From the NCBI GenBank assembly GCA_014190535.1, contig BJGO01000003.1:1-33225 (forward strand): 33,225 bases of DNA. Reading direction: 5' to 3'. Origin of the DNA: Bacteroidota bacterium. GTDB lineage: Bacteria; Bacteroidota; Bacteroidia; Chitinophagales; UBA10324. The notes under the pieces are model-generated. The model saw only the letters and a program-made list of their open reading frames with translations, searched no databases and was not told the origin of the DNA. The number at the start of each line of letters is the position of its first letter. Position 1 is the stretch's first letter. The translations under genes were made by a program, and so were the position numbers. Positions 13,035 through 33,225 of the stretch are shown here, piece by piece.

Positions 13035-14405
13035 ATGAAACTAAAATCGTACACAACAAAAGTCCTTACGGCCGCACTGGTTGTTTTGGCGCTGGTTCAA
13101 ACAGCCTGTAAAAAAGAAAGCCTGATGAACCAGGAAGACATGTTATCTCCGGATCCTGAGCGTAAATTCGCTAAGGCTTGGACCAACGAGGTTCCGGTAG
13201 CCTGGTACAGCTTTCAATTGAAGCTCGTTCCTGCAACTTCCGGCTTTACGCCCCCTATCGCCGCACGTGCATTCAGCTACACAGGCGTGGCATTGTATGA
13301 GTCTATCAAACAATCTACTCCTAACTACACCAGTCTGATTGGTCAGCTTTCTGACTTGAACGCCTTACCACAGTCTGATCCAACGCTTACTTACAATTGG
13401 CCTATCGTTGCCAATACGGCTATGGCGCAAATGACCCGCTCATTATTTGCCAATGCCAGCGCAACCAATCTTGCTAAAATTGATTCAATCGAGTTATCTT
13501 GGAATAACTACTATACCACAACTTTTAATTTATCACCGGCTTTAGTAAATCGTTCTAAGAATCATGGCTTGACTGTTGCCAATGCCGTATTCCAATGGTC
13601 AACTACCGATGGCGGTCATCAGGCATACGCTGCGGTGTTCCCTTCATCTTATGTTCCACCGGTTGGTGGCGGTGCATGGGTGCCAACACCTCCGGCGTTC
13701 CAGGCAATTCCAATGTTACCTTACTGGGGCTCTAACCGCTTAATGGTCCCTGCAAATGGTTCACCAAGTGTTGCTCCTCCCGCACCTCCCGCCTATTCAA
13801 CAGACCCTAACAGTGATTTTTATGCTGAAGCGTTACTGGTTAAAAACACGGTTTCGAACATCACTTCGGAGCAAAGCACGATTGCTTTATTCTGGGCTGA
13901 TGGTGGCGGTACCTTTACTCCTCCAGGCCATATGATTGCCATCGCATTAAAAGAAATCCAGAACAAAAATTACAGACTGGATCGTGCTACTAAATTATTG
14001 TGTCAGGTAGGTCTTGGTTTATATGATGCTTCTATCGTATGCTGGAAAGCTAAATACGATCATAACTTGATGCGTCCTGTTACTTATATCAAAGCCAATA
14101 TCGACCCAAGTTGGAACACTTTGTTTGCAACACCACCGTTCCCTGCATACACTTCAGGTCACTCTACGTTCTCCTCTTCAGCGGCTGTAGTATTAACATC
14201 AACTTTTGGTGCTAACTACTCGTTCGTTGACGATTCAGAAGTGCCTAACGGTTTTGCTCCTCGTGCATTCCCTAACTTCACTGCCGCGGCTAACGAAGCA
14301 AAAATGTCGCGCCTGTATGGTGGTATTCACTATACATTCGATAATGAAGAAGGATTTAACTGCGGAACAGCTGTTGGAAACAATGTGATTAACCTGAATT
14401 GGTAA
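13035..14405 (+). CDS. Vanadium-dependent haloperoxidase / PAP2-superfamily lipoprotein
   Basis: Lipobox-like N-terminus (ALVQTACKKES). Complete vanadate/phosphate-binding triad KYDHNLMRP (K-x6-RP), FPAYTSGH, SRLYGGIH (SR-x5-H). Confidence 0.9.
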   Translation: MKLKSYTTKVLTAALVVLALVQTACKKESLMNQEDMLSPDPERKFAKAWTNEVPVAWYSFQLKLVPATSGFTPPIAARAFSYTGVALYESIKQSTPNYTSLIGQLSDLNALPQSDPTLTYNWPIVANTAMAQMTRSLFANASATNLAKIDSIELSWNNYYTTTFNLSPALVNRSKNHGLTVANAVFQWSTTDGGHQAYAAVFPSSYVPPVGGGAWVPTPPAFQAIPMLPYWGSNRLMVPANGSPSVAPPAPPAYSTDPNSDFYAEALLVKNTVSNITSEQSTIALFWADGGGTFTPPGHMIAIALKEIQNKNYRLDRATKLLCQVGLGLYDASIVCWKAKYDHNLMRPVTYIKANIDPSWNTLFATPPFPAYTSGHSTFSSSAAVVLTSTFGANYSFVDDSEVPNGFAPRAFPNFTAAANEAKMSRLYGGIHYTFDNEEGFNCGTAVGNNVINLNW

Positions 14406-20553: not shown

Positions 20554-21024
20554 TCAGTAAATGCGTTTCTTGCGCACCATCATGTAGTACGAGGGCTCAA
20601 TAGCTTCTGTTTTTCCCTGCAGGTTCAAGATAATACTCACCGTGCCACTCCGCTGATTTGCGCTCAGTGGGAGCAGGGTTATCTTGGCATTGTATTCCTT
20701 GATCAGTTCGCCGGGGTCGCTCTGAATAAAGGGCGATGCATCACTTTCATAATAACACTCTGCCTTTAAACCACCTGTTGAAGAATCGCAGATGGCGGCA
20801 AACATGTAATCGTATAACGAGTCAATAACGAAATATAATCGGAGCGGCTGATTCAAATAACTATATATCATTTTTGTTTCTACCTGTTCGTAGCCCGAAC
20901 GTTGCAGATTAAAATCGTAATTCAGATAAGCCGTTTCGGTATTCGGAGATGGAATTTCAGTTGGCTGTTGTGCAGAAGTATGTATAATAAAAAAGCAGAG
21001 TATGAGCGTAATACAGGTTTTCAT
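20554..21024 (-). CDS. Secreted hypothetical protein, 156 aa
   Basis: Signal peptide MKTCITLILCFFIIHTSAQQ. Convergent with lon, with zero intergenic bases. Confidence 0.7.
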   Translation of the reverse strand: MKTCITLILCFFIIHTSAQQPTEIPSPNTETAYLNYDFNLQRSGYEQVETKMIYSYLNQPLRLYFVIDSLYDYMFAAICDSSTGGLKAECYYESDASPFIQSDPGELIKEYNAKITLLPLSANQRSGTVSIILNLQGKTEAIEPSYYMMVRKKRIY

Positions 21025-21162: not shown

Positions 21163-23847
21163 ATGAAAATTCGTGTCGGAATATTTTTTGGCGGCTCCTC
21201 ACGCGAGCGGGAAATTTCATTTGCCGGCGGCAGAACGGTGTATGACAATCTGGATAAAGCACTATTTGATGCGGTGCCGATTTTTATTGATTCAGACAAT
21301 GAGTTGATTGAACTGGATTGGAAATATATTTACAAAGGAACCATTCGTGATTTTTACCCGCCTGTTGCATTTCATCCCACCTCAGAATTTCCATATCAGA
21401 TTTATCTGGAATCCTTAGGCAAAACAGATCGACAACAAAAAGATCAGATCATCGAAGCCGTAGGCAAACGTATTCAGCACCAAGATCTGAAATCGCTAAT
21501 CGATATTGCCTTTCTTGCTCTGCATGGCTCATCGGGAGAGGATGGCAGTATACAGGGCTTACTGGATTATCTTAACATACCATATACCGGATCGGGCATT
21601 TTGCCATCAGCCATCGGAATGAATAAAGCCATACAGAAAAAGTTTATGAATCTGGCCGGATTTGGAGCAACAGCCTATTTCACCATTACCCGAAGTGAGT
21701 GGGAGCAAGGTATATCCGTATACGATAAAGTGAAACAGGAAATAGGTTTTCCCTGTGTTATCAGACCCGCCAATCAGGGCAGTTCAATCGGGGTTAGCAT
21801 CCTTCAGGCTGACGATGAGCATGCGCTTAATGAAGCTGTCAAGAAAGCTTTTTTCTGTAAAGAGATTGATCTTAAAGCCTGGCGACACTTGCAGATCGGG
21901 GAGAAGCACCAGTTCATCCAAAGGTTAACGGATATTCGAGATCAGCTGGGCTTGCCCGTTGTGGCCGGTGAACGCATCGTGTATCACCCACAAGAATTAC
22001 TCGCCCTCCTTGATGCAACAACAGACGATACCATCCTGCTCAGGGCATACGATGGAGAGTGTGAGCTACTCGTTGAGGAGTTTATTGAGGGCAAAGAATT
22101 TTCGTGTATCGTAATACAGCATAAAGCAGGTGTGCCTATTGCATTACCGCCTACAGAAATTGTTAAGGGTAAGGAATTATTTGATTATCGCTCTAAATAT
22201 CTCGCCGGACTTTCTCGCAAAATAACTCCCATACAATTGCCGGATGAAGAGATTCACCGGATACGGATGGAGTGTGAGCGTCTGTTTCGTTTATTTGAAT
22301 TTAACGTATATGCCCGTATTGATGGCTTTTATAAAAATGATGGCACCATCATTTTAAATGATCCGAATACGACGTCAGGAATGTTACCTTCTTCATTCTT
22401 TTTTCATCAGGCCGCAGAAATCGGATTAAATCCATCACAGTTTCTAACCTATATTTTGTATACCTCGTTAAGTGAACGTATCCGTAGAGGATTTAAAGTC
22501 TATCACACCGAACGCATCCGTGAACAATTATTGAAAGATATGGATACATCATCCCAATCCGACAAACAAAAGATTCGTGTTGCGGTACTGTTGGGTGGCT
22601 ATTCCAGTGAGCGTCATATATCGGTTGAGAGTGGCAGAAATATTTATGAAAAATTATCTTCATCTGATAAATATGAACCGATACCGGTTTTTGTTATGGG
22701 TGATGATAAACAATACAGCCTTTGGCAGATTCCAATTAACATCCTGCTGAAAGACAATGCCGATGATATACGGGATAAAATTTTACAGTTTAAAAAGCAT
22801 TCGGTTATTGAATCCGTAAAAAAAGAGTGCATTGAAATAACGGGCACTTTCGCCACACAGGGCTATCGCTTTGAGCCAATGCAACTTTCCTTTACCGATC
22901 TGGCTCAGGAAGTTCAGGCAGTGTTTATTGCCCTTCACGGCAGACCGGGTGAGGATGGAACGATACAACGTGAGCTGGATAAAGTAGGCTTACCCTATAA
23001 CGGCAGTACGCCGGATTCATCCGAAAAAACAATAAATAAGTACGTTACCAATCAGCTATTGAAACGCAATGGCATGTTGATCACAGAACAAACTGTAGTG
23101 TCGAAGTCGGACTGGATAAAGAATCAAACTTTGTTTTTTGAGGAGATTTCCAAAAGGCACCATTTTCCATTAATTGTTAAACCTGTTGATGATGGATGCA
23201 GTTCTGCAGTAAAGAAAATTAATAATACTGGAGAACTGCAAGCATTTACTGCACTGATATTCAGGGATCACGACGAATTGGATGCTACTCATGCGCATAC
23301 ACTGAAATTAAAACCCAAAGAGGAGTTTCCCCGAAAGCAGGAATATCTGGTTGAAGATCTGATACAGGCAAATGGAGCCATACATTTTCTGGAAATAACC
23401 GGAGGTCTGCTTACCCATATGGATGAACGTGGACAGATTACCTACGAACTGTTTGAACCATCCGAAACGCTTACCACCAACGATGTGCTTTCGCTCGAAG
23501 AAAAATTTCTTGCCGGTGAAGGACTAAATATTACCCCGGCTCGTTTCTCAAAAGATGCCAAACAATACGAACATATTATGGAACAGGTAAAGCGTGATCT
23601 GGAGAAAGCCGCCCGTACATTGCAGGTTACCGGTTACTGCCGGATTGATGCGTTCGTGCGAATTTTTCCAGACGGGAGAGCCGAAACCATAGTAATAGAA
23701 ATAAACTCTTTACCCGGTATGACGCCGGCTACCTGTATTTTCCACCAGGCCGCACTACACAAATACAAGCCTTATGATTTCATAGATAAAATATTAACGT
23801 TTAGCTTTAACAAAAAAGTAAGTAAGGCGAATTCAGCAAATGTTTAA
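21163..23847 (+). CDS. Tandem D-alanine-D-alanine ligase-like protein (two Ddl/ATP-grasp modules in one 894-aa chain)
   Basis: Module 1: KIRVGIFFGGSSREREIS, LHGSSGEDGSIQG, FPCVIRPANQGSSIGVS, YARIDGFYKNDGTIILNDPNTTSGM. Module 2: KIRVAVLLGGYSSERHIS, LHGRPGEDGTIQ, FPLIVKPVDDGCSSAV, YCRIDAFVRIFPDGRAETIVIEINSLPGMTP. A continuous reading frame joins them. Confidence 0.93.
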   Translation: MKIRVGIFFGGSSREREISFAGGRTVYDNLDKALFDAVPIFIDSDNELIELDWKYIYKGTIRDFYPPVAFHPTSEFPYQIYLESLGKTDRQQKDQIIEAVGKRIQHQDLKSLIDIAFLALHGSSGEDGSIQGLLDYLNIPYTGSGILPSAIGMNKAIQKKFMNLAGFGATAYFTITRSEWEQGISVYDKVKQEIGFPCVIRPANQGSSIGVSILQADDEHALNEAVKKAFFCKEIDLKAWRHLQIGEKHQFIQRLTDIRDQLGLPVVAGERIVYHPQELLALLDATTDDTILLRAYDGECELLVEEFIEGKEFSCIVIQHKAGVPIALPPTEIVKGKELFDYRSKYLAGLSRKITPIQLPDEEIHRIRMECERLFRLFEFNVYARIDGFYKNDGTIILNDPNTTSGMLPSSFFFHQAAEIGLNPSQFLTYILYTSLSERIRRGFKVYHTERIREQLLKDMDTSSQSDKQKIRVAVLLGGYSSERHISVESGRNIYEKLSSSDKYEPIPVFVMGDDKQYSLWQIPINILLKDNADDIRDKILQFKKHSVIESVKKECIEITGTFATQGYRFEPMQLSFTDLAQEVQAVFIALHGRPGEDGTIQRELDKVGLPYNGSTPDSSEKTINKYVTNQLLKRNGMLITEQTVVSKSDWIKNQTLFFEEISKRHHFPLIVKPVDDGCSSAVKKINNTGELQAFTALIFRDHDELDATHAHTLKLKPKEEFPRKQEYLVEDLIQANGAIHFLEITGGLLTHMDERGQITYELFEPSETLTTNDVLSLEEKFLAGEGLNITPARFSKDAKQYEHIMEQVKRDLEKAARTLQVTGYCRIDAFVRIFPDGRAETIVIEINSLPGMTPATCIFHQAALHKYKPYDFIDKILTFSFNKKVSKANSANV

Positions 23848-24622
23848 ATTCCTTTTCAATAAAACATTCTTGTTTCATCTGGCGGCCGCCCTCTCCAGCA
23901 TCGTTGTATTATTTCTATTGGTCATATTTTTTATTCAGAATTACACGGTACACGGACAAACAATCACGGTTCCTGACCTAACCGGTAAAAGTATTAATGA
24001 GGTTAAGAAAATATTAGATAATAAAAACCTTGAATATAAAATTGTTGACTCCTCATTTAACGACAAATTTCTTCCGTTGTCTGTTTTAGATCAAAATCCA
24101 AAAGCCGATCATAAGGTAAAAGATGGTCGTACCATTTACCTTACCATTAACTCAAGACAGGCACCTAAAATAAAGATGCCCGACTTAAAAGACGTATCGC
24201 TCAAGCAGGCCGGGGTATTGCTCAACAGCTATGGTTTAAAAGTTGGCCGACTGATTTATAAACCGGATTTAGCTCAAAATGCCGTACTCGATCAAATGAT
24301 AAATGGTAAGAGCATCAAGCCCGGCGATTTTGTCTCAAAGGGATCGACAGTCGATTTGGTGTTGGGTGATGGTGTTGGGTTAGCCGACATAGAAGTTCCT
24401 GTACTTGTAGGCTTAACTCTTGCAGAGGCTAAATTTGTTCTGGATGGTGTTGGCTTAAATCTCGGCGCTGTAGTTGCCGATAATACAGTAAGTTCCGACT
24501 CGCTCTCTGCATATATATTCCGGCAAATACCCGATCCGTCTACACTTAATAATATGATCAAGCCCGGAGAGCCTGTTGATGTATTTATATCCAATGATCA
24601 GTCTAAAGTACCTCGTCAATAA
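23840..24622 (+). CDS. Membrane-anchored protein with three PASTA domains, no kinase domain
   Basis: One N-terminal TM helix, then three PASTA-like repeats (ITVPDLTGKSINEVKKIL, IKMPDLKDVSLKQAGVLL, IEVPVLVGLTLAEAKFVL). Overlaps the upstream ligase by 8 bp. Confidence 0.9.
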   Translation: MFKFLFNKTFLFHLAAALSSIVVLFLLVIFFIQNYTVHGQTITVPDLTGKSINEVKKILDNKNLEYKIVDSSFNDKFLPLSVLDQNPKADHKVKDGRTIYLTINSRQAPKIKMPDLKDVSLKQAGVLLNSYGLKVGRLIYKPDLAQNAVLDQMINGKSIKPGDFVSKGSTVDLVLGDGVGLADIEVPVLVGLTLAEAKFVLDGVGLNLGAVVADNTVSSDSLSAYIFRQIPDPSTLNNMIKPGEPVDVFISNDQSKVPRQ

Positions 24623-26511: not shown

Positions 26512-26817
26512 ATGGAAGATATTACCGTAGATGAACTGCGCCGCCGAATGATGCAGGGAGAACAATTACATATTGTTGATGTACGTGAGGAGTGGGAGTA
26601 TGATGAATTTAATATTGGCGCTAAACTGATTCCACTTGCTGAACTCCCTCAGCATATGGAATATTTGAATCAATTCAGAAATCAGGAATTGATACTTCAC
26701 TGCCGCAGTGGTGGTCGTAGCGGACAAGCAAAACAGTTTCTTGCAAGTCAGGGATTTACCGGCGTGAGGAATCTACTTGGCGGCATGCTCGAATGGCAGC
26801 GAACGGAGCAGGTTTAA
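26512..26817 (+). CDS. Rhodanese-like domain protein
   Basis: VDVREEWEYDEFNIGAKLIPLAEL and active-site loop HCRSGGRSGQA. Confidence 0.93.
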   Translation: MEDITVDELRRRMMQGEQLHIVDVREEWEYDEFNIGAKLIPLAELPQHMEYLNQFRNQELILHCRSGGRSGQAKQFLASQGFTGVRNLLGGMLEWQRTEQV

Positions 26818-28100
26818 AGCACCTCAGCAACAACAAACGTACTGCCTCCAATATAGATGATGTCATCAGCATTTGCCTGAGTCTTGGCTTTTTGCAGTGC
26901 TTCAGACACCCGGTTACAGGCTATGCCGTTAAGATGATGTGCAGAAGCAATTTGCAATAGCTCGTTGACATCAAGTCCTCTTGGCAGGTCGGGTTTACAG
27001 AAATAATAGGTTGCATCCTTTGGAAATAAGGTTATGATTTTATTGATGTCTTTATCCTTTACAAAGCCAATAACGAAATGGAGTTTTTTGCCGGATGATT
27101 TCAGTTGCTGAATCGTTTCAATTAATCCGCCTTCATTATGTCCGACATCAGCCAGGATTGTGGGCTTCTCTTGCAACAAATCCCAGCGACCGCGCAAACC
27201 GGTTTTTATTTTCACCATGCTCAATGCCCGATGAATCATATCTTCATGAATCATATAACCATATTCGTTAAGTACATCGCAGGCGGTGAGCACGCCGGCT
27301 ATATTTTTCATCTGATATAGTCCAGTTAAATCACATGCCACGGTTATCGGCTCCGGTTGATGATGAAAGTGATACTTTGCAAAATGATTAAATCGCTCAT
27401 AGCCTGCGGCCTGATAAAAATCGCTCGCGAAATAAACCGGAGCATCTTCACTTTTCGCTTTAAGATTAAAAACTGCTTCTGTTTCAGTTTGTCGTTCGGA
27501 TAAAACCACCGGAGTATTGGCTTTGATAATACCGGCTTTTTCGAAGGCAATTTTTGGGAGCGAATCACCCAGTAGGTCGGTGTGATCCAAGCTGATATTT
27601 GTAATGATGCTGAGATCGGGCGTGATGATATTTGTTGAGTCCAGTCGGCCTCCTAATCCGGTCTCTATCACCGCTACATCGATCTGTTGATCCGCAAATA
27701 GTTTAAACGCCATGGCCGTAGTAACTTCAAAGAAAGAAGCACTGAGGCTCTCAAAAAATAATCGATGGTCTTGTACAAAATCGATGATCGCCTGCTGACT
27801 AACCGGGGTGCCATTAATCCGGATGCGCTCACTGAAATCTTTAAGGTGCGGTGAGGTGTAAAGTCCGGTCTTATACCCGGCTTCCTGAAGGATGGCGGCT
27901 AACATATGAGAGGTAGATCCTTTTCCATTTGTGCCGGCAATATGAATCGTTCTGTATTGTTTTTGTGGGTGATGAAGGTGTTCACATAATGCAGTAATAT
28001 TTCCTAAGCCACTTTTATATGCGGCAGGTCCAATTCGTGTAAACATCGGCAGGCGACTGTACAGATAGGCTATCGTTTCGGTATAGTTGTTCATCAGCAA
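26814..28100 (-). CDS. folC: Bifunctional folylpolyglutamate synthase/dihydrofolate synthase
   Basis: HIAGTNGKGSTSHMLAAILQEAGYKTGLYTSPHL; VIETGLGGRLDSTNI; ISLDHTDLLGDSLPKIAFEKAGIIK; DVGHNEGGL. Confidence 0.96.
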   Translation of the reverse strand: MLMNNYTETIAYLYSRLPMFTRIGPAAYKSGLGNITALCEHLHHPQKQYRTIHIAGTNGKGSTSHMLAAILQEAGYKTGLYTSPHLKDFSERIRINGTPVSQQAIIDFVQDHRLFFESLSASFFEVTTAMAFKLFADQQIDVAVIETGLGGRLDSTNIITPDLSIITNISLDHTDLLGDSLPKIAFEKAGIIKANTPVVLSERQTETEAVFNLKAKSEDAPVYFASDFYQAAGYERFNHFAKYHFHHQPEPITVACDLTGLYQMKNIAGVLTACDVLNEYGYMIHEDMIHRALSMVKIKTGLRGRWDLLQEKPTILADVGHNEGGLIETIQQLKSSGKKLHFVIGFVKDKDINKIITLFPKDATYYFCKPDLPRGLDVNELLQIASAHHLNGIACNRVSEALQKAKTQANADDIIYIGGSTFVVAEVL

Positions 28101-28341: not shown

Positions 28342-29172
28342 TTATTTTACCTTAAAGTTAAAGGTAATGGTACCGAACTGCTCTAAATCTTCACTTGGTG
28401 TAAGTTTCGATTCGTAGGCCGATTTTTCAGCCAGTTTAAACAGATATGCGTCTTCGGTAGTTGAACCTTGTCTGGTTGCCTGAGCGTGTATAACATTTCC
28501 AAACTTATCTACTTTGATATTTACCACCACCTTGCCTGTTTTTTGAGAATTATCTTTTACTACAGGTCGTTTGGAAAAACTTCTGCCGGCAAGATTTAAT
28601 CCTATTCCGTCACCTCCTGCTCCAAGCGGATTATCTCCACCTCCGACATTCGAATTGCCGTTCGTAAATGGATTGCCATTTACCTTGCCCTGATCACCAC
28701 TGCCAACCGTATTTCCCTGACTACTCACGTTATTATTCTTTGATCCGGTGAACAAGGCTTTAGGTTTTTGTACGGGTTTCTCTTGTGTCTGTGATGTAGT
28801 GGTGGTATTATTTTTCACAACCGGTTTATCAACCGGCGGCTTTTTAACTTTATTTTTTTCTTTGTTTAAAGAAATGCTCTGTTCGATATCCTGCGTTACC
28901 ACATCATTATTTTTCACCGGTGCAATGGTACTGGCCTCGGGTGGAGTAGGGACGTTATAATCCGTACTCTGCGGAATCTCAGTGCCGGAGCCTGTTTCTG
29001 AATCCCCAAAGTTAATCAGTATGCCTCCGCCGTCTTCTTCTTGTGGTATAGGCATGGGTAAAAGCTTAATCAATAATAGAATCAGGATAAGCATACCGTG
29101 GAAAACAATCGTGCCGATGATACCTCTGATTCGCTCTTTCTTTTCCTGTTTATTTTCGTATGTTGTTATCAT
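28342..29172 (-). CDS. TonB-like energy transducer
   Basis: N-terminal TM helix; Asn/Gly/Pro/Lys-rich linker; C-terminal GKVVVNIKVDKFGNVIHAQATRQGSTTEDAYLFKLAEKSAYESKLTP. Clustered with ExbB/ExbD. Confidence 0.87.
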   Translation of the reverse strand: MITTYENKQEKKERIRGIIGTIVFHGMLILILLLIKLLPMPIPQEEDGGGILINFGDSETGSGTEIPQSTDYNVPTPPEASTIAPVKNNDVVTQDIEQSISLNKEKNKVKKPPVDKPVVKNNTTTTSQTQEKPVQKPKALFTGSKNNNVSSQGNTVGSGDQGKVNGNPFTNGNSNVGGGDNPLGAGGDGIGLNLAGRSFSKRPVVKDNSQKTGKVVVNIKVDKFGNVIHAQATRQGSTTEDAYLFKLAEKSAYESKLTPSEDLEQFGTITFNFKVK

Positions 29173-29175
29173 GAA

Positions 29176-29580
29176 TTATTTCTCCGGTTGTGTTGCTAAA
29201 ACGAGTTTAACCTTCATTTTATTGGCTATGTCCATAACAGTTACTACATAGGAAATAGGTACGTTAAAGTCGGTATGTAAAATAATGGTAGGATTAGGTT
29301 CGCTACCAATTTTTTGTTCAAGTATTGCTCGAAGATTCGCAACATCCACCGGTTGTTCTGCAACAAAGTATTGCATATTCTCATTTATGGCCACCGATAT
29401 CGTAAGGTCTTTTTGCTTCTGAGAGGTAGTACTGTTGGGTAGAACCAGTTTTAAGGCATTTACATTAGGAACAATCATCGTAGTTACAAGCATAAAGAAT
29501 ATCAGCAATAGGAATACCAAATCCGTCATACTCGACATTTCAAGTGCCGGCCTAACATTATCACGCGTTTTAATTTTCAT
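29176..29580 (-). CDS. ExbD/TolR-type biopolymer transport protein
   Basis: ALEMSSMTDLVFLLLIFFMLVTTMIVPNVNALKLVLPNS is the ExbD TM/periplasmic motif. Confidence 0.95.
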   Translation of the reverse strand: MKIKTRDNVRPALEMSSMTDLVFLLLIFFMLVTTMIVPNVNALKLVLPNSTTSQKQKDLTISVAINENMQYFVAEQPVDVANLRAILEQKIGSEPNPTIILHTDFNVPISYVVTVMDIANKMKVKLVLATQPEK

Positions 29581-29585
29581 GTTGT

Positions 29586-30308
29586 TTACTTAACCGGTTC
29601 TTCTAATAAATCTAAAAATTCAATCGAACTGCTTTCCATTTTAAATATCACTTTTTTGATCATCGCCGATAATATGTTGTAACATACCAGCGCGATGATA
29701 CCTACCACCAGACCGGCCACGGTAGTGACCATAGCCTCGTACATGCCGCTGGATAAAACGCCAATATTTATGGACTCGTGTGTTCGTTGATACTCCATAT
29801 TCATGTCATAGAAGGCTCGCACCATACCGGTTACGGTTCCAAGAAAACCAAGCATAGGAGCCGCAGAGGCACAAGTTGCCAGGGCACTTAATCCCCGTTC
29901 CATCTTTACGACCTCAATATTGCCAACATTTTCGATAGCTTTTTCGATATCAGGCAGTGGTTTCCCGAGGCGCGATATCCCTTTTTCGATCATACGTGCC
30001 ACCGGGTTGTTAGTGTTTTTACATAAGGCTTTTGCGGCATCTATATTTCCCGAAGTGATGTAATCACGAATATTATTCATAAAATTCGAGGGATCCTTTG
30101 AAAGTTTATTGATGGCAATCAGCCGTTCAATAATGATATAGACCGCAACCACCGAGCAGATTAATATGGGAATCATAACGGGACCGCCGGCCATAAGCAA
30201 ATCGAACAATGTCATTTCTGACGTTGCGGGAACGGCGGTTTGTTGCAGAGCCGTTTGTGGTCCTAATGGTTGTGTGCTATCGATGATTTGAAGTAAGGTA
30301 TGCATCAT
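29586..30308 (-). CDS. ExbB/TolQ/MotA-type proton channel protein
   Basis: Three TM segments; ATCASAAPMLGFLGTVTGMVRAF; YEAMVTTVAGLVVGIIAL. Confidence 0.95.
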   Translation of the reverse strand: MMHTLLQIIDSTQPLGPQTALQQTAVPATSEMTLFDLLMAGGPVMIPILICSVVAVYIIIERLIAINKLSKDPSNFMNNIRDYITSGNIDAAKALCKNTNNPVARMIEKGISRLGKPLPDIEKAIENVGNIEVVKMERGLSALATCASAAPMLGFLGTVTGMVRAFYDMNMEYQRTHESINIGVLSSGMYEAMVTTVAGLVVGIIALVCYNILSAMIKKVIFKMESSSIEFLDLLEEPVK

Positions 30309-31487: not shown

Positions 31488-33225
31488 ATGATAACTAAAT
31501 TACAAGCTAAATTTATCGGTTCACTGCTCTCTTTTTTAACGGTATTCTTCGTTACATTATGTAGCGCACAAGTTTCAAACTATCAGTTTTTTCAGCTATC
31601 CGGCACGTATACACCTATAACCGGGGGCACGTTAATTAACGATGGAATATTGTCGCAATCGCGACAATTTGATGATGAAGAAGTTGAGAATATTCCTTTG
31701 GGTTTCACCTTTAATTATAATGGGTCTTCATTTACTACGGTTAATTTAAGTTCAAATGGTTTTTTAACCTTCAATCCGATCATCACTACATACTCCCCAA
31801 TCAGTTCATCTGCACCAAATCGGGTAATATCTGCTATGGGGGCCGACCTGGCTTCGGGTGTGAATATAATGGGTAACACCATTCAGGCGAGCAACCTGAT
31901 TACCAATGTGGCCAGTATAAATGGATTGAGTGTAGGGCAGGCAATTTCTCAAACAGGCAACAACGTTTTTCTACCGGGTACTACTATCACGGCCATTTCA
32001 GGATCCGGACCCTTTACATTAACGATGAGTGCTGAGGCTGATGCTAATGCAAGCGATGAGATTATCGAGTTTAATTTCGATAGTCAGGTGCCCGGGGAGA
32101 ATCCTTCGGAGTTACGTTATCAAACCATAGGTACAGCTCCAAACCGCACGTTTGTAGCCCAGTATACCCGCTTAACCCGTTACGGCTTTTTTTATGATAA
32201 TCTGAATTTTCAGATTCGTTTAAATGAAAATGGATCGATTGAATTTGTATATGGTGATTTTACCTGGAGTAGTTCATTACAAAATACCGCTCAGGTTGGT
32301 ATAAAGGGTAATACCAATAATGATTTTAATAATCGCAGGGGAACAAACTGGAATGCGACCACGCCGGGAACAACAAGAACAAGTTTTGTTGTTGCAGGAT
32401 CGAATAATATACCGCCTGTTTCAGGAACTACATTCCGCTGGGCCTTATGCACTTCGGCAGAGATAGTAGTAACTCCTGCAACAGATACGCTTTGTGCCGG
32501 TCAGTCATCGTCATTAACCGCTTCAGGAGCCGTTTCCTATACGTGGGCACCTGAAGCCGGACTCAATACCTCAACCGGAGCAAATGTAATCGCATCGCCG
32601 ACCACTAGTACGACTTACACTGTTCTCGGTTCGGATGCCAATGGATGTGTGAATACGGCAACAGTTTCTGTTTTGGTATCCGGAGGGCCCAGCATATCTG
32701 TTAATGATGCTACCATCTGTTCTGGTAATAATGCAGTGCTTACGGTGACACCATCCAATCTGAACTATAGCTGGTCTAATGGCGAAAGCACATCATCGAT
32801 AACTGTCAGTCCTGCATCTACAACTACATTTACCGTTACGGTAACGGATGAAGCTGGTTGCTCTGCTAGTGTTGATGGAACCATTACTGTTGATACGCTG
32901 ACTTTCAGTAACACCGACGTGGCGGTATGTAACAATCAGTTGCCATATAACTGGAACGGTAACGATTACAATGCGGCAGGAAGCTATGAAGTTACTTTGA
33001 GCGGAGCCAACGGCTGTGATAGTATCGCTACTTTAATCCTTACAGTAAATAACACCGGCAGTTCAACAACCGACGTGGCGGTATGTAACAATCAGTTACC
33101 ATATAACTGGAACGGTAACGATTACAATGCGGCAGGAAGCTATGAAGTTACTTTGAGCGGAGCCAACGGCTGTGATAGTATCGCTACCTTAATCCTTACA
33201 GTAAATAATACCGGCAGTTCAACAA
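31488..33225 (+). CDS. Large secreted/adhesin-like repeat protein, 3' end truncated by the window
   Basis: ATG at 31488; signal peptide MITKLQAKFIGSLLSFLTVFFVTLCSAQ; frame open with no stop to 33225. Ig-like/gliding-adhesin-type segments (TPATDTLCAGQSSSLTASGAVSYTWAPEAGLNTSTGANVIASPTTSTTYTVLGSDANGCVNTATVSV). Missing from the ORF list because it lacks a stop. Confidence 0.9.
   Translation, partial: MITKLQAKFIGSLLSFLTVFFVTLCSAQVSNYQFFQLSGTYTPITGGTLINDGILSQSRQFDDEEVENIPLGFTFNYNGSSFTTVNLSSNGFLTFNPIITTYSPISSSAPNRVISAMGADLASGVNIMGNTIQASNLITNVASINGLSVGQAISQTGNNVFLPGTTITAISGSGPFTLTMSAEADANASDEIIEFNFDSQVPGENPSELRYQTIGTAPNRTFVAQYTRLTRYGFFYDNLNFQIRLNENGSIEFVYGDFTWSSSLQNTAQVGIKGNTNNDFNNRRGTNWNATTPGTTRTSFVVAGSNNIPPVSGTTFRWALCTSAEIVVTPATDTLCAGQSSSLTASGAVSYTWAPEAGLNTSTGANVIASPTTSTTYTVLGSDANGCVNTATVSVLVSGGPSISVNDATICSGNNAVLTVTPSNLNYSWSNGESTSSITVSPASTTTFTVTVTDEAGCSASVDGTITVDTLTFSNTDVAVCNNQLPYNWNGNDYNAAGSYEVTLSGANGCDSIATLILTVNNTGSSTTDVAVCNNQLPYNWNGNDYNAAGSYEVTLSGANGCDSIATLILTVNNTGSST
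32916..33225 (+). repeat. Two tandem copies of a 156-bp (52-codon) in-frame repeat, second copy cut by the window edge
   Basis: Copy 1 is 32916-33071, copy 2 is 33072-33225. Only three differences seen by eye, all synonymous. Unit: DVAVCNNQLPYNWNGNDYNAAGSYEVTLSGANGCDSIATLILTVNNTGSSTT. Confidence 0.95.

Follow-up and report, generated by a model that had tools for sequence, protein, structure and literature searches.

A two-module D-Ala-D-Ala ligase with two different conserved active sites in Bacteroidota

Introduction

D-Ala-D-Ala ligase (Ddl), which produces the D-alanine pair of the bacterial cell wall, is a classic example of an essential enzyme. It is targeted by D-cycloserine and is regarded as a homodimer of single-module subunits. 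The usual Ddl (EC 6.3.2.4) is a protein of about 300-370 aa in which one N-terminal domain (Dala_Dala_lig_N, PF01820) is combined with one ATP-grasp domain (Dala_Dala_lig_C, PF07478). The catalytic residues and the metal and ATP ligands are, in DdlB numbering, E15, K97, K144, S150/S151, E180, E187, K215/Y216, R255, D257, E270, N272, and G276. For ligases of lactic acid bacteria, phenylalanine at the position equivalent to Y216 has been reported to predict depsipeptide activity, and tyrosine dipeptide activity (PMC5996685). Y216F is also the change present in PDB entry 1IOW, according to its title.

The gene described here is located in a 33,225-nt stretch of DNA from a member of the Bacteroidota (contig BJGO01000003.1, assembly GCA_014190535.1), referred to as the window. 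A first-pass annotation of this stretch had recognized two fused Ddl modules; differing invariant active sites, a link to PASTA proteins, and split, truncated, and inactivated relatives were absent from it.

Gene and domain architecture

The tandem ddl gene (21163..23847, + strand) starts with ATG and forms one uninterrupted frame of 894 aa containing two complete Ddl modules, in contrast to the usual single module. In the whole chain, PF01820 is detected as two stretches (170.4 bits) and PF07478 as four stretches (178.5 bits), because inserts split both ATP-grasp domains; both domains are present in both halves. When the halves are scanned alone, TIGR01205 is the top match of each, with 223.5 bits for half 1 and 146.1 bits for half 2. 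Either half falls short of the model's cut-off of 245.65 bits, which the whole chain passes with 363 bits. All motifs quoted in the first-pass annotation are present: the N-terminal signatures GIFFGGSSREREIS (residues 6-19, half 1) and AVLLGGYSSERHIS (residues 474-487, half 2), the LHGxxGEDGxIQ-type motifs LHGSSGEDGSIQ (residues 120-131) and LHGRPGEDGTIQ (residues 591-602), and an RID/N/GM motif at the C-terminus of each half. Its reading of two full modules in one chain is borne out by Pfam, TIGR01205, and the single frame. The FHQAA sequence that it had noticed is indeed found in each half, and the F-H-x-x-A block is rare in single-module Ddls.

Half 1 (residues 1-462; 21163..22548, +) carries a canonical Ddl active site. 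Its ATP-grasp domain contains an insert of about 60 aa (residues 232-293; 21856..22041, +) that lacks a counterpart in DdlA and DdlB in the alignment and that is folded into helices and strands in an AlphaFold model. The catalytic omega loop of half 1 lies around DYRSKYLAGLSRK, with low pLDDT at residues 337-349 (22171..22209, +) in the model. A helix at about residues 442-469 (22486..22569, +), assigned by DSSP of the same model, links half 1 to half 2 (residues 469-894; 22567..23844, +), which has a variant active site. The omega loop of half 2 comprises residues 772-787 (23476..23523, +) and places F782 at the DdlB Y216 position according to alignment and model. Half 1 is 31% and half 2 is 28% identical to E. 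coli DdlB, and the two halves share 24% identity with each other.

The AlphaFold model of the whole chain, calculated with 68 sequences, has a mean pLDDT of 86 and a pTM of 0.87 and shows one confident arrangement, with low confidence at both omega loops. The covalent pseudo-heterodimer proposed in the first-pass annotation is plausible in view of this model, and its halves may pack like the DdlB dimer.

The source genome is a 2.64-Mb draft in 261 contigs with a completeness of 99.9%. A domain search of the genome found no second PF01820 gene, so that the tandem gene is the sole D-Ala-D-Ala ligase gene found and a separate single-module ddl, whose presence had been left to be checked, was not detected. 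Other PF07478 matches were rejected as separate Ddls; they are located in frames of 385-504 aa that have no PF01820 match.

Distribution in Bacteroidota

A total of 122 homologues with both modules was collected, with full-length identities of 51-63% where tabulated. Among 40 relatives, more than half encode a full-length or near-full-length double Ddl, likewise with 51-63% identity. At least 548 encoding loci were revealed when 84,980 species genomes were scanned. The 80 loci retained from these, which include the isolates Adhaeribacter soli and Rhodocytophaga aerolata, all show 55-62% identity along almost the entire protein. In the order of the window, about 85 of 299 genomes have the double or a double-derived form. 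The double form also occurs in most families of the order of genome G228; this order includes family f29, which groups with Adhaeribacter in the tree. The usual single Ddl is found instead in family f21 and in nearly all members of family f28. The two-module form seems to be in use across large parts of the Bacteroidota, namely in the order of the window, in Saprospiraceae, in Hymenobacteraceae and relatives, and in Amoebophilaceae. This large family in several Bacteroidota groups is apparently undescribed: full-text literature searches for tandem or fused Ddl, for Ddl with PASTA, and for Saprospiraceae with Ddl yielded no paper describing a two-module Ddl architecture.

Two different active sites

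For each half, 19 catalytic and ligand positions were scored (38 in total), with an exchange of R and K allowed at position 201. All 38 positions are kept in 122 of 122 intact homologues (19/19 in each half). In half 1, the site residues include E15, K155, S207, S208, E305, E312, K345, Y346, R385, D387, N402, G406, and S411, and D400 takes the place of DdlB E270. All Ddl ligands are present in this half, with K144 as K or R and E270 as D. In half 2, the site is formed by residues including E483, K626, K673, C679, S680, E731, E744, K781, F782, R827, D829, E846, N848, and T857, and all ligands are present as well, C standing in for S150 and F for Y216. A loss of E187 in half 2, which had been suspected by eye, was dismissed, as a wider alignment places the invariant E744 at this position after a 6-aa insert.

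In a DdlB-numbered alignment with 31 single-module Ddls, half 1 is canonical except for E270D and P275S, and half 2 has the invariant substitutions E17H, S150C, G153A, Y216F, and S281T; each of these differences is present in all 29 halves sampled. Phenylalanine at the DdlB Y216 position is found in half 2 only and not in half 1. In pairs of intact doubles, both halves evolve at equal rates, with identities of 67-81%.

Origin of the two halves

In an unrooted maximum-likelihood tree, half 1, half 2, and the single-module Ddls each occupy one side of a branch (support 100/99, 100/100, and 90/80, respectively). As the singles lie on one side (90/80), the two halves share one attachment point among them, and trees built for each half separately place either half near DdlB and locus L035. 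This common attachment agrees with the internal duplication put forward in the first-pass annotation. Furthermore, 13 positions are common to both halves and rare in singles, including F414/F860, H415/H861, P424/P870, and F427/F873. The stem branches of the halves are long (3.2 and 1.8), and the tree tool flags a possible false join. An in-frame internal duplication of one ancestral Ddl is hence moderately supported by these comparisons: the shared attachment point and the 13 shared positions speak for it, and the long branches weaken it.

Linkage to PASTA proteins and genomic neighborhood

A gene encoding a 260-aa protein with a hydrophobic N-terminal segment and three PASTA domains (PF03793, three stretches; 23840..24622, +) follows downstream and overlaps the ddl stop by 8 nt. 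Of the 122 double loci, 77 have a PASTA gene next to ddl and 6 have a PASTA fusion; none was seen beside ddl in the other 39, in some of them because of a short flank. Fusions of the double Ddl with a C-terminal transmembrane (TM) segment and PASTA domains in frames of about 1200-1370 aa were found at loci L120, L150, L159, L096, L044, L066, and L227, with the fused form belonging to some Saprospiraceae-type genomes. PASTA genes also adjoin some single Ddl genes (L036, L038). Adjacency and fusion, including the position beside single Ddl genes, suggest an older functional connection of Ddl with the PASTA membrane protein.

Upstream of ddl lies lon, and a 156-aa ORF with a signal-like N-terminus and no Pfam match is located between the two (20554-21024, -). 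Two further ORFs in the window have no Pfam match at the thresholds used, one of 456 aa (13035-14405, +) and one of 579 aa that runs off the window (31488-33224, +). A Mur-ligase-type protein that is FolC-like and has middle and C domains only is encoded near ddl (26814-28100, -). Genes for ExbB and ExbD are followed by an unmatched 276-aa ORF at the place where a TonB-like partner would sit (28342-30308, -).

Decay of the double form next to a standalone Ddl

Family f18, which is taken as Saprospiraceae, includes 14 genomes from seven genera (g205, g192, g214, g287, g288, g249, g280), chosen by extra or divergent matches in the protein search, that encode a standalone Ddl in addition to a double-derived protein (decayed Ddl-PASTA loci L204-L208, L258-L265, L270). 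In all 14, catalytic residues are lost in both halves, with 3-15 of 19 positions remaining in half 1 and 2-16 of 19 in half 2. The standalone genes that were placed in the tree are of at least two kinds, DdlA-like (L168/L169) and DdlB-like (L177-L179). Conversely, a domain search found no standalone Ddl in 86 genomes with an intact double, 49 of which were also residue-scored and have 19/19 positions in either half. As 9 of the 284 f18 genomes lacked any match in the protein search, the domain search that covered 73 of the 86 genomes is the stronger statement on the absence of a standalone Ddl.

Changes between the intact and the decayed state number at least three on the full-chain tree and at least four on the tree of the PASTA part. 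In one close pair with decay, the halves are 66% and 49% identical and the TM and PASTA part is 71% identical, compared to 81/80/73% (half 1/half 2/TM and PASTA) in two intact neighbors. All 14 decayed doubles are fused to PASTA, and the retention of a dead Ddl may therefore merely reflect its place upstream of PASTA in one frame. The shrunken Ddl parts of L208 and L264 are consistent with retention by position only. A second, partial double-Ddl copy with an intact half 2 was observed at a contig end (L266) in genome G701, which has 4% contamination.

Split and truncated relatives

In family f87, which apparently includes Cardinium hertigii cEper1 and Amoebophilus asiaticus 5a2, most of the genomes checked encode half 1 and half 2 in two genes that are not linked (L296-L309, L321-L324, all in Cardinium/Amoebophilus-type genomes). 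Both of these strains are reported to be capable of peptidoglycan synthesis (PMC3486910). The half 1 genes of f87 score 18-19 of 19 positions and the half 2 genes 18 of 19, or 17 of 19 in the two smallest genomes, and G852A is found in all f87 half 2 genes. In the nine f87 genomes with an 18/19 half 2, the PASTA gene directly follows half 2. That both split genes are kept in genomes of only 0.7-1.9 Mb argues that both halves are useful and able to act in trans. In the 0.7-Mb genome G843 (96% complete), only half 2 was found (L320), with S at the C679 position; here, half 2 possibly acts alone, or a contig is missing. Unless this is an assembly gap, half 1 would not always be needed.

The opposite reduction is found in families f30, f71, and f73. 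Their sole Ddl is encoded in a frame of 558-657 aa consisting of half 1 and a degenerate half 2 N-domain without the half 2 ATP-grasp domain (L209, L210, L310-L315). No Ddl other than this form is present in 22 genomes checked from f30, f71, and f73, nor in G228 and G288. In the eight scored, half 1 has 19 of 19 positions, and D is kept at position 270. The f30 form is derived, as its half 1 falls inside half 1 of the doubles and a half 2 remnant is retained. With half 1 alone intact in a sole Ddl, this half apparently suffices for dipeptide synthesis in these families, and E270D is apparently tolerated. The persisting half 2 N-domain could serve as a dimer-like partner. A similar truncated gene from Bernardetia sp. 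(NZ_CP147018.1:82942-84657) is annotated simply as D-alanine--D-alanine ligase.

Discussion

Judged from sequence comparison, the double protein is probably a covalent asymmetric Ddl heterodimer linked to PASTA, with half 1 as the main ligase and half 2 as a conserved partner, and serves as the only Ddl of the cell. Sequence comparison shows the two-module architecture, the sole-Ddl status, the invariance of both sites, their joint decay beside a standalone Ddl, the splits and truncations, and the adjacency and fusion of PASTA; catalysis by each half, dimer-like packing, and the role of PASTA are inferred. Most probably, one ancestral Ddl was duplicated in frame, so that an asymmetric heterodimer within one chain would have replaced the usual homodimer. 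Half 1 with its canonical catalytic constellation would be the main D-Ala-D-Ala ligase. Half 2, as constrained as half 1, would be an ATP-grasp-competent partner whose substrate pocket is presumably retuned by the residues at DdlB positions 150 (C), 216 (F), and 281 (T); it would support or regulate half 1 and probably make the same dipeptide rather than a different essential product. Its site would be preserved while no other Ddl exists beside the double. Through the PASTA membrane protein, provision of the dipeptide is plausibly coupled to the condition of the periplasmic wall. The dispensability of half 2 catalysis in f30, f71, and f73 speaks against this explanation, as do genome G843 with half 2 only, the long branches that weaken the duplication, and the 39 double loci in which no PASTA gene was seen beside ddl.

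A sequencing or assembly artefact fusing two ddl genes, for which the draft state of the genome in 261 contigs could be invoked, has a negligible probability: the same unbroken architecture occurs in 122 homologues and many unrelated assemblies, and the two isolates named above also carry the full-length double. Chance, like the frameshift or false join that the first-pass annotation had considered, is excluded by full-length one-frame homologues in dozens of independent genomes. It is very unlikely that the halves catalyze successive or coupled steps with channeling as in carbamoyl-phosphate synthetase. The tandem ATP-grasp layout and a Foldseek comparison of the whole chain with large subunits of this enzyme (TMq 0.46-0.48) point in this direction, but the structures superpose badly (rmsd about 15 Å), a single ATP step is all that Ddl chemistry requires, and the halves also occur as unlinked genes and half 1 also without a second ATP-grasp domain.

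A bifunctional protein, in which half 2 would be a second ligase with another product such as D-Ala-D-lactate, is unlikely, though somewhat less so than channeling. The invariant F at the Y216 position, which in ligases of lactic acid bacteria is a predictor of depsipeptide activity (PMC5996685), would fit this role, as would the equally invariant S150C and S281T. However, half 2 degenerates along with half 1 in genomes that have a standalone Ddl, and every standalone Ddl in the alignment carries the usual Y; an ordinary Ddl releases both sites from selection, which makes a different essential product of half 2 unlikely. Moreover, the half 2 ATP-grasp domain is wholly lost in f30, f71, and f73, and scores with models of D-Lac and D-Ser ligases are far below their cut-offs (NF000206, 188 vs 550 bits; VanG, 243.6 vs 495 bits; VanA, 144.3 vs 775 bits). 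A stronger competitor, held to be a serious possibility with roughly one chance in three, is that half 2 is a non-ligating regulatory subunit that adjusts the activity of half 1 after binding nucleotide together with D-Ala or dipeptide. This would agree with an altered substrate-side pocket next to retained Mg and ATP ligands, with a half 2 N-domain that outlasts deletion of its ATP-grasp domain, and with PASTA being fused right after half 2 or encoded directly downstream of the half 2 gene in split genomes. Yet the complete catalytic set of K626, K673, K781, R827, D829, E846, and N848 is invariant, although a pure sensor should require less. Overall, ligation by half 2 is given an even chance, ahead of regulation. 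The more specific proposal that half 2 senses nucleotide and substrate and is in physical contact with the periplasmic wall via the TM and PASTA protein is doubtful; if it were true, the state of the wall would control the dipeptide supply from half 1.

In the asymmetric heterodimer favored here, a two-module Ddl departs from the single-module homodimer picture of the D-cycloserine target. The natural splits, truncations, and pseudo-enzymes turn ligation by half 2, the need of half 1 for an N-domain, the wiring to PASTA, and the presence of both halves in genomes of Cardinium size into concrete, testable questions.

Comparison with known systems

Each half resembles DdlA and DdlB (PF01820 and PF07478, TIGR01205) in fold, motifs, and catalytic residues. 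In contrast to these enzymes, the protein described here has two modules per chain, and both of its ATP-grasp domains contain inserts; half 1 carries E270D, and half 2 carries S150C, Y216F, and S281T. LmDdl2 and the depsipeptide ligases of lactic acid bacteria share with half 2 the F at the DdlB Y216 position, whereas half 2 additionally carries S150C and S281T and shares its chain with a Y-type half, without which it was found in one MAG only. The bifunctional MurC-Ddl protein (NF011171) likewise contains a Ddl module in a fused chain, but Pfam finds no Mur ligase domain in the double Ddl, which scores 190 bits with NF011171 against a cut-off of 1015. With the large subunit of carbamoyl-phosphate synthetase, a member of a different family that superposes poorly with the whole chain, the double Ddl has the tandem ATP-grasp layout alone in common.
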